Positions 1 through 32,098 of a stretch of DNA of 64,000 bases are shown piece by piece (position 1 is the stretch's first letter; every line of letters begins with the position of its first letter). The position numbers and the translations under genes were made by a program. The notes under the pieces are model-generated. The model searched no databases. It was not told where the DNA came from and worked only from the letters and a program-made list of their open reading frames with translations. Source of the DNA: an uncultured Akkermansia sp. (GTDB taxonomy: Bacteria; Verrucomicrobiota; Verrucomicrobiia; Verrucomicrobiales; Akkermansiaceae); NCBI GenBank assembly GCA_947631275.1, contig CANRKR010000001.1:1-64000 (forward strand), given 5' to 3'.

Positions 1-125
1 TTAATATACCCTGCAACGAACCAACTGGCACCTTTTTTGTGCCTGCGTCGTGTTGCATTTAATTTTGCAATGCACATCATGTAATTGCTCCGTCGTTTCT
101 CCTTGCAACACGATGGGCTGACGGC

Positions 126-131
126 TATAAT
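126..131 (+). promoter_or_regulatory. Sigma70-like promoter for dynamin-like gene (TTGCAA 103-108, 17 bp, TATAAT 126-131)
   Basis: -35/-10 match with 17 bp spacing; the -10 box overlaps the ATG at 130, so translation probably starts at ATG 139. Confidence 0.6.
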
Positions 132-138
132 GGCGCGC

Positions 139-2040
139 ATGACAGAGGAGCAACTGACCACACTCTGCCGCAATGCGCGCAGTTATGCCGAAAAAATTGA
201 AGCGCACACTCAGGGTAGCCCGGATTTGCGAGCACAACTCACACGAGGGAGCCGGGAAATCCGGCGCAGCTTGGCGCGTTTTGATTCCAAGCTGTTGCTC
301 ATGGCAACCATCGGCTCGGTGAAAAGCGGTAAATCCACGCTCACAAACTGCCTGTCACGCCGCAACCTGTGCGCCACAAAGCTTGGACTGGAGACAACGC
401 GTCTTCCAATGATCATCCTGGCGAGTGACGACGGCACGGAGCGCATTGAACTCTTCTCCCCGCTGGCAGCTGATTCATTGAGTGAAAAGGAACTTTTTGA
501 ACTTGTCATCGACTACCTGCGCCACATCGCCCCGCCGGAATTCCACGAGAAAATCGCTGTGGATCGCCGCAATATCACCCGCGAAAATCTGGATGCGTGG
601 GCTCGCGGACAAACCAGTGCCAGCTGTGCCGCCATCTTCCTCGTAGAACCCGATGCCCGCCTGCTGCAAGCGGGTATCGGCATCATCGACATGCCCGGTA
701 TGGATGGTCTCACCTCCAACTGGCACGATGAAGAACTGCACGAGTGGATGAATGAAAACGCGGATTATTTCCTGCTGGTGCAAAGTTCCTTTGCTGCGCT
801 CACGCCAGACACGCGCGACTACCTGCGCAGTGCCACGGAACGTTCCAAACGTCCCATCCGCGTCGTCCAAAACCGCATTGAAGCCCAATTCTGGCTTACC
901 CCATCCGCACAGGAGGAGCAGCAAATCACCCAACAAATTGCCACCCAAAAACAGCTCGGCGACTTTATCCGCAAGGTCATCCCCGGCAGCTGGGTGAATG
1001 CCGGTCTCGCCTGGTGGCAGCAGGAAAGTAAACTCTCCCCTCAACAAGACTCCACCCCGGAAAGCGATGCCACTCCCTCCTGTCGCCAGTCGAACCTCAC
1101 GATGCTTGAAGAAGAGGTGCTCTCCGACCTCAGCCATCCTGAAGCCACTCTGCGCCGCAACTGTGCGGATTACTTACTCAAGACACTGGAAGGTTTTGAT
1201 GAGCGTCTCAAAACCTTCAGCGCTGCCTCCCGCGCACATATCTCACACGTGCATGAAATCCAGACCTCTATCCACCGTCTCATGGATGAAGCACGCCTGC
1301 GTGAGGCTATTGAAAGCAACAATTTGCGAGAAGGGCGCCAACGCTGCGGCTACCTCGCCGACCGCGCCCGTCAAGCTCTTTTCACCCGTCTGGATTCCAT
1401 TCTCGATATGGCAGTGGACGGCTATTTCCCCACCGAATGGATGGAACGCGACATGCTTGCTCAGGAACTCAACCGCATCCGAGCCAAAGTGGAGAACGAC
1501 CTCGGCGACCTCTCTGCCGAGCAGGAAACCCACGTACTCTCTCCCGCAAAAATTTGTGAGCTCACTGACCTAGAACGCGAAAAAATAGCTGAATGCGCTC
1601 GTATTCTTGACCGCCGCCGTGCGGAAGAAATTGAAAAGGACTATGTGCGCGCAGTTCTTGCAGCGTGGCAGCACGTGCCGCTGGATTGCAGTCCTATCGC
1701 ACTAGGAGCGCTGAAGGAAACGACGTTCCTTGGCATGATCAACCGTTCCTGCAGCTACAACCGAACCGCTCCGGAGTGGCGCCGCAACGGACGTGAAAAC
1801 ATAGCCAACCGTCTTGAAACATGGAAAGTGCAAGTCGGTGAAGCTCTGGATATGTTTGTCTCCCGCCGCATCGCTGCACTCAGCAAGTGCCTCACCCATG
1901 AGCTGGAATCTTTTGAACTTTCTGAGCAGGTCGGACGCAGCATCAATGAAGCCGAGTCAGATATTGAACACATCACAATCCTGCGTAAGGATCTCTCTCC
2001 TATCCTCCTCTCCGCCCGCCGACTCAAGGCTCTGCAATGA
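139..2040 (+). CDS. Dynamin-like / large GTPase family protein
   Basis: P-loop GSVKSGKSTLTN, downstream switch-like ETTRLP and G3-like DMPGMDG, long alpha-helical C-terminus; ORF 85..2040, start reassigned to 139. Confidence 0.75.
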   Translation: MTEEQLTTLCRNARSYAEKIEAHTQGSPDLRAQLTRGSREIRRSLARFDSKLLLMATIGSVKSGKSTLTNCLSRRNLCATKLGLETTRLPMIILASDDGTERIELFSPLAADSLSEKELFELVIDYLRHIAPPEFHEKIAVDRRNITRENLDAWARGQTSASCAAIFLVEPDARLLQAGIGIIDMPGMDGLTSNWHDEELHEWMNENADYFLLVQSSFAALTPDTRDYLRSATERSKRPIRVVQNRIEAQFWLTPSAQEEQQITQQIATQKQLGDFIRKVIPGSWVNAGLAWWQQESKLSPQQDSTPESDATPSCRQSNLTMLEEEVLSDLSHPEATLRRNCADYLLKTLEGFDERLKTFSAASRAHISHVHEIQTSIHRLMDEARLREAIESNNLREGRQRCGYLADRARQALFTRLDSILDMAVDGYFPTEWMERDMLAQELNRIRAKVENDLGDLSAEQETHVLSPAKICELTDLEREKIAECARILDRRRAEEIEKDYVRAVLAAWQHVPLDCSPIALGALKETTFLGMINRSCSYNRTAPEWRRNGRENIANRLETWKVQVGEALDMFVSRRIAALSKCLTHELESFELSEQVGRSINEAESDIEHITILRKDLSPILLSARRLKALQ

Positions 2041-2041
2041 A

Positions 2042-4926
2042 ATGCTCCCCCGCATCAACAAATCTGTTGTATCGCAAAATATTGAGAATGAGCTGATAGC
2101 AGCCCCCCCCCGCAAACACAACCGACTCGTTATCAATATATTGCGCATAACAGAACGAGGGACTCAGCTCGACGATTTGTCAAAAAATGGCAAAATGCTC
2201 CCGGCGGCGGAAAACAGGAGACATTGAGGTTTTGGCTCGAACTGTTACACACGGTGTATGGAGTACGGAATCCTATGGATGTGGTGCGCTTTGAAGAGCG
2301 CGTGAAGGTAAACGGTGCCACCTGCTTTATCAGCGCCCACCTGCCGGACACTCGCGTCATCATCGAACAGAGGGGCACGGACGTTGCGCTGAATGCTCCG
2401 CAAATGCAGTCCAGTAGACGTATGCTTACGCCCTACGAACAGGCCAAACAGTACTCGGACAATTTGCCGTTGGAAATGCATGCGCGCTGGATTGTGACCT
2501 GCAACTTCCGCGAGTGGCGCATCCATGATATGAATAGCGTCGCTCCTGCCACCCCAGTGAGCGTCATCGCCCTTGCCGAGTTACCCGAACAGTGGCATTT
2601 GTTACGCTTCCTTGTGGACACGCAAAGCTCCCGCGTCGAACGTGAAAAACGAGCCTCTATGCAGGCAGGCGAGCTCATCGGTCGCATCTACAACACCTTG
2701 CTTTCTCGTTGTCCGAACCCGAGTGATGCTACCGTCATGCAGAAGCTAAACAGATTTTGCGTGCGTCTCGTTTTCTGCTTCTACGCAGATGATGCCGGAC
2801 TTTTCGTCAAAGATCAATTCCTTCAATACATCTCTACTGTGGTCGTCCCCGACGCCGTACGCGAGCGCATCATGAAGCTTTTCCGCGCTCTCAGTCTACC
2901 CCCGGAAAAACGCGATCCTTTCGATGACGAGCTGCTTGCTTTCCCTTATGTGAATGGAGGGCTCTTTTCGGAAAACGATGAAGATTACATCCCCAGGCTG
3001 GATGAAGAAGCGTGTGCCCTCATCCGCCGTGAGACCGGCACCTGTTTTAACTGGAGCAATATTTCACCCACCATCCTCAGCGGGCTTTTTGAAAGTACGC
3101 TTAACCCCGAAGCGCGACACCAAGGCGGCATGCACTACACGAGTGTGGAGAATATTCATAGAGTCATCGACCCTCTCTTCCTAGATGCCCTCAAGGAGGA
3201 GCTTCGCAACATCGTAGAATCACGCCGAAACTCAACTACCACTCGCACCCGCAAGCTGGAAAGCTTCCACGCCAAACTCGCCTCACTCTCCTTTCTCGAC
3301 CCCGCTTGCGGTTCCGGCAATTTTCTCACCGAGACTTACATTTCCCTGCGGCGTCTGGAAAATGAAGTCTTGCGCTACCTCTCCAACGGGCAGGACAGCT
3401 TCGACGGCGAGTTCGCCCGTGTAAAGGTTTCCCTACAACAGTTCTTCGGCATTGAGACCAACGACTTCGCCGTATCTGTTGCAAAAGCCGCTCTCTGGAT
3501 TGCCTCTGCCCAAATGTGGAGGGAAACCAAGGAATTATCTACACAGGATGTCTCCGATTTTCTGCCACTTGAAAACTATGACAACATACGCGAAGGGGAC
3601 GCTCTCCGGTTCGACTGGCTTGGCAATATTCCCACTCGCCACGTAGACTTCATTATAGGCAATCCGCCGTTCGTGGGAGCACGCTATATGAGCAAAGAGC
3701 AAAAGACGGGGTTATTGCAAGTCTGCAAGGATATTCACGGTGCCGGAGATTTGGATTATGTTTCAGCGTGGTTTGTCAAGGCAGCGGAAATCATGCAGCG
3801 AGACCCGGCTACACGTACCTCCTTCGTAGCGACCAACTCCATCACGCAGGGGCAAACAGTAGCTCTTCTCTGGCGGCATATTCTTCAGGAATGCGGCATG
3901 AAAATCAATTTCGCTTATCGCACATTCAAATGGGCGAATAAGACCAGGAACATGGCTTCAGTTCACTGCGTCATTGTCGGATTCAGTGGGAAGAAAACAC
4001 CCTGCCGTCTGTTTGATGAGCAAGGAGTAGAACATAGCGTTTCACACCTCAATGGCTATTTGATAGACGGAGAAGACGTCTTTATTGCGAACCGAATCAG
4101 CCCCATTTGTGACGTTCCGAGAATGGGAAGCGGCAACAAGCCTATTGATGGAGGCTATTACCTCTTTACCCCAGAAGAAAAGGAAGAATTTTTGGAGGAG
4201 GAGCCGGGAGCGGCTCCGTTTTTTCATCCGTGGATGGGAGCAGAAGAACTCATCAACGGGAAAAAGCGTTTTTGCCTGTGGCTTGGGGATGCCACGCCAC
4301 ACGTTCTGCGTTCCCTGCCTCACTGCATGGAACGCATGGAAAAAGTGCGTGCTTACCGTGCAGCGAGCAAAAGCGCACCGACAAGGAAAATTGCAAACAC
4401 ACCCTACCGCTTCCACGTGGAGAATATACCGAAGCGAACGTATCTTGTCCTTCCCGTCACTTCGTCCGAGCGACGAGAGTATCTTCCCATTGCATTCTTA
4501 GGAGGAGGAACAATCGCGAGCAATCTTCTGTTACTCATCCCCGATGCCACACTCTACCATTTCGGAGTTCTCACGTCTGCCATGCACATGGCCTGGATAC
4601 GGACGGTTGTTTGCAGATTGAAAAGCGACTATCGCTACTCCAACAAAGTTGCCTACAACAATTTCCCCTGGGCAAGGCCTACGGACACGCAGCGCGCGAG
4701 AATAGAAACCTGCGCACAAGCGGTTCTGAACACTCGGGCAAAGTACCCCGAGAGCACACTGGCAGACCTCTATGACCGAGATTCTATGCCCGACGAATTG
4801 CTGAAAGCACACCGCGCCTTGGACGAGGCGGTAGATGACACTTACGGGAAGAAGTTCAACAATGATTCCGATCGCATCACGCATCTCTTCGCGCTCTACC
4901 TGGAGTTGACAGGGGAAAGGAAATAA
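2042..4926 (+). CDS. MmeI/YeeA-type single-chain (Type IIG/IIL-like) DNA methyltransferase/restriction enzyme; N-terminus frameshifted at C9 (predicted OFF)
   Basis: Adenine MTase motifs FLDPACGSGNFLTE and IIGNPPFVGARYMS; N-terminal IIEQRG...LTPYEQAKQYSDNLP...ARWIVTCNFREWRIHDM; TRD-like C-terminus. Frame is open upstream of TTG 2224 and encodes the family-like RRFVKKWQNAPGGGKQETLRFWLELL. Confidence 0.85.
2103..2111 (+). repeat. Homopolymeric C9 tract at the 5' end of the MmeI-like RM gene (putative phase-variation tract)
   Basis: gcag-CCCCCCCCC-gcaaac; ATG 2042 frame and methyltransferase frame are joined only if the tract is C10 (or C7). Confidence 0.8.
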
Positions 4927-5079: not shown

Positions 5080-6102
5080 TTAACACCATTCCCGAGGCGA
5101 CCAGAAAAGCCGCGCGTGCTCCCTCGTGATGCCCCTCATATTCAGATAGCGCGTACGCAGCAAATGCGACGTCGAATGGCCCATCTCTATCTGCAACTGC
5201 GACAGATCTCGGAAATGCTTCAGATGGTAGCTTGCAAAGGTGTGCCTCAACACATCTTGTTGCCACTCAGACATCCCGGCATCCCGCCTCAGCTTCTGCC
5301 ATTTGTGATTCCAATTCTCCGGACAAATATCTCCCTGACGTCCCTTGCCGCCGCACACCTTCACCAACCACCGTTCCAGTACAGGTTGCAATGTTATGCA
5401 CCTCGCCCCTCCCGTCTTGCTGTGCCTCGCAGGCAACAGAATGTCCCCCTCTTCCCAGTTGATATCCTCCCATTGTATCCTCTGCGCCTCTGTCGGGCGT
5501 ATTCCCGCCCACAGCATTAGTCCCAACACAGGGGCCAGACTCCGATGGTTCGATTCCTGCACCGCACCCAGAAGCTTCCCTATCTCTTCCCATGGTAGTG
5601 CCTCTATTTCCGTTTCCCTCAAACGCATCTTCGGGATCGCCTTTATTGGGTTACCTTTGCACCACCCATGCCTCTCTCCGCACGCAAAAACGGAATGCAG
5701 CACCGTGCGACCCTTATTGAATTGTCGCGGCGTCGGGAAAAGAGCGGAAAGAACTCCCTGACATTCGCTCGGCTTAATGCTCCGCAACGGTTTGCTTGCT
5801 ATGCGTGTCTGACTCTGCAAAATGCGCTTGCTCACATAGTGCAACTCACGACGCGTGCTCGGTCGCCGCCCTTCCCTCTCACGCAGCGAAACTTCCACAG
5901 CCTCGCGTAACGTGACAGTCTGCTCCTCCTCCTTCACGGCACGGTCCCCTTCCTCTATAATCTTTCGACAATAGTTGAGCCGTGACACTCCTTTCTTGCT
6001 TTTGGGACATCGTTCCAACAATTCTCGAGAGAGTCTCACTGCATCTTCTAATGTAATGCCCATTGAATAAATCCATTTGTGGTCTTCATTTTTTATTATC
6101 AT
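5080..6102 (-). CDS. Tyrosine recombinase / phage-type integrase
   Basis: C-terminal LRHTFASYHLKHFRDLSQLQIEMGHSTSHLLRTRYLNMRG and upstream GLMLWAGIRPTEAQRIQWEDI (integrase Arg box). Confidence 0.85.
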   Translation of the reverse strand: MIIKNEDHKWIYSMGITLEDAVRLSRELLERCPKSKKGVSRLNYCRKIIEEGDRAVKEEEQTVTLREAVEVSLREREGRRPSTRRELHYVSKRILQSQTRIASKPLRSIKPSECQGVLSALFPTPRQFNKGRTVLHSVFACGERHGWCKGNPIKAIPKMRLRETEIEALPWEEIGKLLGAVQESNHRSLAPVLGLMLWAGIRPTEAQRIQWEDINWEEGDILLPARHSKTGGARCITLQPVLERWLVKVCGGKGRQGDICPENWNHKWQKLRRDAGMSEWQQDVLRHTFASYHLKHFRDLSQLQIEMGHSTSHLLRTRYLNMRGITREHARLFWSPREWC

Positions 6103-29723: not shown

Positions 29724-30835
29724 TTATTTCATCAAATGTTGGACAGTTTTGTGAAGCCAGAATCGTGAATCGCGAACCATAACAATAAGCGCTTTGTCCA
29801 GCAGCCTCAAAGCTTCCGAGAAGATGATGGCAAGCGCTAGGTTGATAGCGAACATGATAGGCAGTTTGATGCCCCACTCCAAGCGAATATACGGGGAAAT
29901 GAGGTGGGAACAGGAAGTGGACACCCCCTGACCGGCGTAGTAGAAAATGGCGTTGCGACCGATATGTTCAAAGAAGCGGTTGCGCAGGGTGTCACTGGCG
30001 AAGAAAATAATAGCAGCCATGGAGAGGCAGGAAGCGGCTATGTAAGGAAGTTTGGTGGGGAATTTATTAATTTGCAGGTTATAAACACTGCTGCCCTCGC
30101 ACAGATAACAGAGGCGGAAAACAATGAAAGCCACGAATGCCAGGAGCACGGCAAATTTTCTTCGCCTGTGAATCTCCACGGGGATGATGTGCTGCTGGCA
30201 CCAGTAGCCAAACAAGTAACTCGCCACCGGGAAGAGCAACATTTGCAAGTCCACACCAAGGAATCGGTACCCCGCAAAATTCAGCACCCCTCCGAACGCC
30301 AGCACGTAGCTGAGTACGATGAGTAAGATGACTTTCGCAAGATACCCCCCCCCGTACTCTTAATGATCACCCCGCCGAGGATGATGGTGCAGGCATAGAC
30401 AGGAACAAACCAGTAGGAACCCGCTGCGGCCCTGAATAGGGGAGAAACGTCGAGCCTTATGAGAAACAGCGGTCTGAAAATCGATGCCCACGTAACTCCT
30501 CCATCAATCAGATTGCATAAGAGCCCCAATAGCACAAATATCATTGAAAGCTTAAAGAGCTGGGTCAGAATGGTGTCCTTCTGAATGTACGCCCTGGTCA
30601 TGCCTGCGATGAAGAAAAACGCCGGCACATCCAACAGCAGCGAGATGGACTTCATCGGCATGGGAACGTATGCCCCACCCGACCAAAAGCATGTGTGAAT
30701 AAACACGATGCTCAAGGCACAGATGCCGCGTACCAGATCAATGTAGTGCGCACGCGGCTTTCTTACGGTTGCGACTGCGGATGCGGGTGCGACGTTTGCC
30801 TCTCCTTCGGGGCTTTCAGAATCCGTTTGTTTCAT
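29724..30835 (-). CDS. Acyltransferase-3-like membrane acyltransferase, frameshifted at G9 (predicted phase OFF)
   Basis: N-terminal YIDLVRGICALSIVFIHTCFW in ORF 30281..31111 (start MKQTDS at 30835) and remainder in ORF 29724..30305; one added G joins them as KSTGGGYLAKVILLIVLSYVLAFGGVLNFAGY. Confidence 0.75.
30345..30353 (-). repeat. Homopolymeric G9 tract (minus strand) in acyltransferase gene
   Basis: Plus strand gata-CCCCCCCCC-gtac. Confidence 0.85.
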
Positions 30836-31212
30836 GGTGCAGAATCTTTGCTGTAAGTTAAAATGATCACTCCCAGGCAAATGACCGCTATCCCGATGCA
30901 TTTTTGAGGAGTGAGCGGCTCGTTCAGGAAGAAATAGGCCAGGACAGCGGTGATGATAAACCCGACACAGGAAAAGGGATAAGCCAGCGATACATTGACC
31001 TTCGAAAGTACCACCATCCACAAAACAAGGGATACGGCGTAGCACAGCATCCCGCCCCAAAGGTACAGATTCGTAAAGAAACTCAAAAGCATGTTCCAGA
31101 GCTGATCCCATTTCAACGTGACCACACCGACTTTGAGCATCCCCTGTCGGACGAATAATTGCGCCAGGGCATTCAGTGCTACACTGGACAAGATCAGCAG
31201 GATGTTTTTCAT
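30832..31212 (-). CDS. Small DMT/EamA-like (ArnE/EmrE-type) four-TM protein, possible lipid-sugar flippase
   Basis: MKNILLILSSVALNALAQLFVRQGML; VNVSLAYPFSCVGFIITAVLAYFFLNEPLTPQKCIGIAVICLGVIIL. Confidence 0.8.
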   Translation of the reverse strand: MKNILLILSSVALNALAQLFVRQGMLKVGVVTLKWDQLWNMLLSFFTNLYLWGGMLCYAVSLVLWMVVLSKVNVSLAYPFSCVGFIITAVLAYFFLNEPLTPQKCIGIAVICLGVIILTYSKDSAP

Positions 31213-31231: not shown

Positions 31232-32098
31232 TTATGCGACGTTGAGGAAGAGCAACAGCACGTAGCCGACAAAGGTGCAGCACGTCAGCAACAGAGCCTT
31301 ATCCTTGTACAGGTTCTCCGTCGGATCCTCCGAACCGTTATACTTGTCCAAAATGTACACGTACCAGAACATCCCGAACACCACAAACACGATGCTGTAG
31401 ACCATGCGGTGCGTGCCAAGGTTAGCCTTTGTATTGGTCTCCATGGTCCAGAGGGCGTAGGACATGATGGTGAGAGCCATCGTGACTGCCAGATAGGCAT
31501 TGAGCATTTCTTTCCCGTACTTTTTGAGCACGGTACGCGATGCCGTTCCATGCCGAAGCAGTTCCCCCTTGCGTTTCGCAAATCCCAAAAAGAGCGATAA
31601 AAACAGCGTCGTCATGAAGATAAAGCTCGATACCGGTTCATGGATGGCATAGGCGCCGGCATACACCCGCAGTACAAATCCTATGGCGATGACAAACACA
31701 TCCAATAGGACGATGTTCTTCAGCTTCCCGGAATAGAGGACGTTGATGAGCAGATAAAGCCCGATGACTCCCGCAACCTTGATATCGCCCAACAGCCAAA
31801 TGAATACCCCCCCCCCGTACAAAAGAAGGAGGGCTGCCACAAGACCTTTTTTCACCGAGATGACTCCGCTGGCTATCGGGCGATATTTCTTTTGAGGATG
31901 CAGGGCATCCTTTTCCCGATCCTGAATATCGTTGACGATGTAGTGGGCGCTGGCGATAAGGCTGAACGCGAGGAAGGCGTAGAGAGCCGACAGGACGGAG
32001 GGGATGTCCGTAAACTGAAAGGAGAACAAGAGAGGCGCAAGGACAAAGGCGTTCTTGACCCACTGCTTGATACGGATAAGTTTCAACCAAGCATTCAT
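31232..32098 (-). CDS. UbiA-family prenyltransferase, decaprenyl-phosphate phosphoribosyltransferase-like
   Basis: RIKQWVKNAFVLAPLLFS, SAHYIVNDIQDREKDALHPQKKYRPIASG; ORF intact with G10 tract. Confidence 0.85.
   Translation of the reverse strand: MNAWLKLIRIKQWVKNAFVLAPLLFSFQFTDIPSVLSALYAFLAFSLIASAHYIVNDIQDREKDALHPQKKYRPIASGVISVKKGLVAALLLLYGGGVFIWLLGDIKVAGVIGLYLLINVLYSGKLKNIVLLDVFVIAIGFVLRVYAGAYAIHEPVSSFIFMTTLFLSLFLGFAKRKGELLRHGTASRTVLKKYGKEMLNAYLAVTMALTIMSYALWTMETNTKANLGTHRMVYSIVFVVFGMFWYVYILDKYNGSEDPTENLYKDKALLLTCCTFVGYVLLLFLNVA
31807..31816 (-). repeat. Homopolymeric G10 tract (minus strand) in UbiA-like gene
   Basis: Plus strand aata-CCCCCCCCCC-gtac; encodes YGGGV. Confidence 0.9.

Follow-up and report, generated by a model that had tools for sequence, protein, structure and literature searches.

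Most known phase-variable methyltransferases come from pathogens. An established poly-G phase-variable type IIG enzyme is Cj0031c of Campylobacter jejuni, which restricts phage and carries its tract in the middle of the gene, at position 2573 of 3732 (PMC4889913). MmeI, whose structure is known (5hr4), is tract-free and has an active PD-ExK nuclease with residues D70, E80 and K82, and alanine substitution at any of the three abolishes cleavage (PMC4833311). Its homolog DnmA of Bacillus subtilis lacks a working endonuclease motif and acts as an m6A methyltransferase (PMC7261158). Within Akkermansia, random switching has been described for genes with invertons (PMC13343947, PMC11892184), their repeats carrying the motif CGGATT..AATCCG (PMC13343947), and in A. 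muciniphila culture the gain of a base has been seen at the G9 tract of Amuc_1413, a gene of polysaccharide-export type linked to mucin binding (PMC13055324).

We analysed a window of 64 kb, the whole stretch of DNA considered here, from the draft metagenome-type assembly (128 contigs, about 2.1 Mb) of an uncultured gut Akkermansia. The window contains an MmeI-type gene that resembles Cj0031c in encoding a single-chain type IIG protein, in having a C/G tract of 9–10 bases in the reading frame, in having many tract-free relatives and, as far as the reading frames tell, in being ON at one tract length and OFF at the next. It differs from Cj0031c in having its tract at the extreme N terminus, a degenerate nuclease site and a verrucomicrobial commensal as host. 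The gene matches MmeI along its entire length, with all five domains, but has lost the D and K of the nuclease and has a tract. Judged from its residues, it resembles DnmA in being homologous to MmeI yet lacking a functional endonuclease motif; the DnmA subgroup as a whole is without the motif, while the loss here is recent, with close relatives keeping the site, and a tract is present. The DnmA neighbours yeeB and yeeC (helicase and nuclease) are absent, the genes alongside being a dynamin-like GTPase and a tyrosine recombinase. With Amuc_1413 the gene shares a nine-base G/C tract in an Akkermansia gene where one added base shifts the frame, although the gene itself is MmeI-type, and it differs from the inverton genes of the genus in carrying a homopolymer instead of an inverton. 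We consider it probable that the gene encodes an MmeI-type adenine methyltransferase subject to phase variation, with C9 as the OFF and C10 as the ON state, and that its nuclease has been lost.

Reading frames and start codons at the C9 tract

The features of the locus, in window coordinates, are as follows.

85..2040, forward strand: dynamin-like GTPase gene (Pfam Dynamin_N, 1.5e-9); start uncertain, TTG 85 or ATG 130/139
2042..2102, forward strand: leader, ATG 2042 and about 20 codons (MLPRINKSVVSQNIENELIA) as far as the tract; open frame
2042..2227, forward strand: frame read at C9, a 61-aa peptide whose TGA 2225–2227 overlaps TTG 2224
2103..2111, forward strand: C9 tract, proposed slippage site; C10 (or C7, C13) would fuse the leader and enzyme frames
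2092..4926, forward strand: MmeI-type enzyme frame, 944 codons and stop
2155..2223, forward strand: conserved codons (RTRDSARRFVKKWQNAPGGGKQET) upstream of TTG 2224 (alignment, pS/pN); evidence for an upstream start
2216..2227, forward strand: AGGAG-ACA-TTGA, possible reinitiation site, from the sequence
2314..2373, forward strand: degenerate PD-ExK site (CFISAHLPDTRVIIEQRG) with S at MmeI D70, E80 kept and R at K82, from alignments
5080..6102, reverse strand: tyrosine recombinase (Pfam Phage_integrase, 1.5e-13)

The initial annotation had described an ATG-started frame that enters the C9 tract and leaves it out of frame with the enzyme, and on rereading the sequence we found this geometry and all of its coordinates to be correct. 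The frame from ATG 2042 translates as MLPRINKSVVSQNIENELIAAPPRKHN... and ends at TGA 2225–2227; the tract length at 2103–2111 was read from one assembled allele. The enzyme frame is open upstream of TTG 2224, from 2092 through to 4923, with TGA 2089–2091 just 5' of it and TAA 4924–4926 at its end. The claim that it has no ATG before TTG 2224 can be extended to GTG and TTG, ATT 2140 being the sole unusual start codon in that part of the frame. One extra C (C10) does give a single continuous protein, of 961 aa from ATG 2042 to 4923, and a one-unit change of the tract toggles the gene between an interrupted frame (C9) and an open one (C10), as read at both lengths.

The dynamin-like gene ends with TGA 2038–2040, 1 nt before ATG 2042, and no promoter was found on this strand between it and the MmeI-type gene; a promoter-like TTGCAA-17-TATAAT is present at 103–131. 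The pair probably shares a transcript and is coupled. The Shine–Dalgarno sequence of ATG 2042 is poor (AAGG at 12 nt), which counts against the switch. Within a comparison set of 76 species of the genus, orthologs of the dynamin-like gene occur in 24 other species at 68–90% identity, and in one of these (G068, 90% identical) the recombinase follows it directly with no MmeI gene between, so the MmeI gene was either inserted here or lost there. Farther along the window, G+C drops to 0.40–0.48 between 32000 and 52000, against 0.52–0.56 around it, and this segment is possibly an acquired island.

The codons 5' of TTG 2224 had been called family-typical, and the alignment bears this out, the relatives reading FADKWTAAPGDEKQETQSFW and the window FVKKWQNAPGGGKQETLRFW. 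Among the 19 residues before TTG 2224, 11 are identical to those of the relatives, with pS of 0.96 and pN of 0.32, and the relatives in G072, G074 and G064 (69–71% identity) start at an ATG about 23 residues before FADKW, a place equivalent to the tract region of the window. As these codons are conserved and pS far exceeds pN, the natural start should lie at or before the tract; since no in-frame standard start exists there, this supports the switch, and translation is unlikely to begin chiefly at TTG 2224. Among 386 genomes from the order that were searched, there was no relative closer than 71% over the full length, and none was found when the enzyme protein was searched against genome contigs. 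For the leader at 2042–2102 no homolog was found, including in the sequence upstream of relatives, and it shows no similarity to the intergenic region of G068 (score 18 vs. a shuffle 95% point of 19). An exact DNA search of viral contigs for the leader and tract gave no match, and no MmeI relative of the genus was found to have poly-C near its start. The lack of a leader homolog and of a tract in relatives also speaks against the switch.

A feature absent from the initial annotation is the overlap of the leader-frame stop with TTG 2224 (TTGA) behind an AGGAG, which raises the alternative that the tract chooses between a long and a short enzyme: at C9, ribosomes ending at TGA 2225–2227 would reinitiate at TTG 2224 and make a 900-aa methyltransferase without the first part of the N-terminal domain, whereas C10 would give the 961-aa form. 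The AGGAG stands 3 nt upstream of the TTG, the leader frame is open exactly as far as the enzyme's first in-frame start, relatives have no TTG at the corresponding place, and the methyltransferase and recognition domains lie entirely downstream of it. The AGGAG is, however, also explained by conserved KQE codons, its spacing to the TTG is short, and the residues before the TTG are under purifying selection, so that a form containing them must be made at times. We regard this alternative as rather unlikely.

The enzyme and its nuclease site

The frame matches all five Pfam MmeI domains above cut-off (MmeI_N, hel, Mtase, TRD and C) and scores 1037 bits with the PADLOC type IIG model, and the sole sequence match among solved structures is MmeI itself, over its full length (E 1.4e-181). 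The architecture is that of the MmeI family (type IIL/IIG), with an N-terminal domain, a helical spacer, a gamma m6A methyltransferase, a TRD and a C-terminal bundle in one chain. The methyltransferase motifs DPACGSGNF (family DPACGxGNF) and GNPPF are kept. The PD-ExK site of a type IIG restriction–modification enzyme is not, as D is changed to S and K to R with only the E retained (FIDAY to FISAH, IEQK to IEQR), substitutions that the initial annotation did not mention. Close relatives, including those in G069 and G071, read IDAYLPDTRVLIEQK in the nuclease motif, against ISAHLPDTRVIIEQR in the window.

Lineage-specific changes within the nuclease domain numbered 32 in the window lineage and 4 in the sister clade, compared with 56 and 30 in the other domains (Fisher P = 0.008); the excess persisted against the methyltransferase and TRD alone (P = 0.03). 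The enzyme frame has no stop in 944 codons and its dN/dS is 0.05–0.16 where synonymous sites are unsaturated, the nuclease domain included, which by these sequence measures places it under purifying selection. With D and K gone from the nuclease, the methyltransferase preserved and selection purifying, the ON state would methylate without restricting, and the enzyme is most likely a phase-variable methyltransferase and not a restriction enzyme. Of the earlier description as a phase-variable restriction–modification gene, the phase-variable geometry is supported by the frames, the upstream conservation, the genome-wide excess of long C/G tracts at frame junctions and the invertons of sister species, and the restriction part is not supported, D and K being replaced.

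The same changes could belong to a dead or dying allele that lost its start and nuclease after insertion, the C9 being incidental and the body still intact as the loss is recent. Consistent with this, the gene is missing from the sister species G068, the nuclease residues are gone, the natural start of the relatives is missing here, and lineage-specific changes are in excess in the N-terminal domain. Against it, all 944 codons are free of stops with dN/dS in the low range given above even in the nuclease domain, the methyltransferase motifs are preserved, and the one-base-off ATG frame enters a tract of a class that is over-represented in the genome. Decay of this kind is unlikely, and slightly more so than reinitiation at the TTG.

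Long C/G tracts in the window and the genome

Among the C/G runs of the window, 55 are 5 bases long and 4 are 6 bases long; lengths 7 and 8 are missing, and then come two runs of 9 and one of 10. Under an order-3 Markov model, 0.38 runs of at least 9 are expected per 64 kb, against the 3 present. The whole genome has 71 C7, 20 C8 and 31 runs of at least 9, while geometric decay from C7:C8 would give about 7.8 of at least 9 and 2.2 of at least 10, of which 14 were seen. About 5.6 C9 runs are expected by chance and 17 are seen in the genome; on length alone, perhaps a third of the C9 runs are attributable to chance. Further evidence comes from where the tract stands, at the beginning of a gene that lacks any other start. 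As is expected of phase variation, a homopolymer longer than chance stands at the start of a reading frame. Among the readable tract genes, the frame is broken in about 13 and kept in 11, a split compatible with random registers. Represented among the tract genes are an acyltransferase-like gene, AlgX-type acetyltransferases, outer-membrane barrels and a secreted ankyrin family, and many of the long-tract genes are surface, glycan-modification and secreted-repeat genes.

With an assembly miscount, the true tract would be C10 and the enzyme constitutive. Indel errors usually fall in homopolymers, and the assembly is a metagenome-type draft of 128 contigs in which contig ends coincide with poly-C runs (contig C52 ends in C21). 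Nine bases are manageable for short reads, though, other tracts of 9–11 bases in the genome are in frame, and a real C10 would itself be prone to slippage; we find a miscount improbable. Very improbable is a fixed C9 at which transcriptional or ribosomal slippage yields a constant low level of full-length enzyme: homopolymer slippage is established in principle and the leader and enzyme frames overlap by more than 100 nt, but such slippage is best known on A/T runs, no stimulatory element was identified, and slippage at the DNA level is the simpler route for a C9.

An acyltransferase-like membrane gene on the minus strand (window 29724–31111) is split into two frames exactly at a G9 (30345–30353) and is a candidate for a further phase-variable gene; a UbiA-family prenyltransferase gene (31232–32098, minus strand) carries a G10 at 31807–31816 and is in frame. 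Two AlgX-type SGNH acetyltransferase genes of G000 with a G9 (L052 3061 and L055 2680) are one in frame and one frame-broken. About 11 genes have a common promoter and leader consisting of ATG and 5–7 codons, C9–C14 (C21 at a contig end) and a signal-peptide-like segment. Most encode secreted ankyrin repeats (L047 has Sel1 instead). The frame is broken in nearly all of them but intact in L047, and together they look like a phase-variable secreted multigene family. Their positions in G000 are as follows.

L033 3004, L043 3076, L044 3065, L046 2483, L047 1144, L048 3053: shared-leader genes
L050 274, L053 1343, L054 2561 and 5881, L056 3788: further shared-leader genes

The shared leader of the ankyrin-type genes is present in 4 other species of the genus, and in a scan of named genomes the leader motif of the tract-bearing ankyrin genes turned up in the 'Lapin' (rabbit) series of Akkermansia MAGs and nowhere else. 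A C11 run (L034 3000; G000:C7:5449–5459) lies 5' of the gene for the alpha subunit of RNA polymerase and shares an open frame with it; the run probably sits in the leader and not in the coding part.

Proposed switch and other MmeI genes

In the switch that we propose for the window gene, the gene would be transcribed behind the dynamin-like GTPase gene and translation would start at ATG 2042. At C9, the assembled state, ribosomes would leave the frame and stop at 2227, leaving the enzyme OFF. If strand slippage added one C (C10; or gave a tract of C7 or C13), the leader would be joined to the 940-codon body and the 961-aa enzyme turned ON. The ON state would then methylate its target site without cleaving DNA and could serve as an epigenetic switch, with a possible effect on gene expression. 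With the nuclease lost, such a switch would alter DNA marking and not phage defence. Gene callers would begin the protein at TTG 2224 and overlook it. If the proposal is true, methylation may be switched at random in a major genus of gut commensals, and the locus offers a testable case, as two clones one C apart should differ in methylome.

The same genome contains a second MmeI gene, apparently split by an assembly gap (contigs C22 and C14), in which D, E and K are all kept. The two copies are 63% identical in the C-terminal half of the target-recognition domain, and from this difference we infer that they probably have different targets.

In the sister species G069 and G071, an MmeI gene is split by intragenic inverted repeats carrying GGATATGTAATCC, which match the inverton motif of the genus cited above, and flipping the inverted segment in silico restores open frames of 934 and 959 codons. 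One G072 contig begins exactly at the inverton repeat. The intragenic invertons and the repeat are located as follows.

L059 3125–4086: inverton, G069
L060 3923–4946: inverton, G071
L061 1–30: inverton repeat, G072

We rejected an inverton in the window gene itself, the equivalent position, 2824, being without the CGGATT motif. With poly-C here and invertons in sister species, variable MmeI expression would recur by two routes. It is quite possible, if somewhat less likely than not, that the MmeI family of gut Akkermansia has repeatedly come under stochastic control by unrelated devices, the window copy being a nuclease-dead phasevarion in the Verrucomicrobiota. Switching by such a mechanism is already known; what is new is the nuclease-dead enzyme, the group of hosts and the inverton that parallels the tract in sister species.

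Elsewhere in the family, G072:C43 (L062) carries two MmeI genes in tandem whose target-recognition domains differ, and halves of this domain have seemingly been shuffled among the MmeI relatives.
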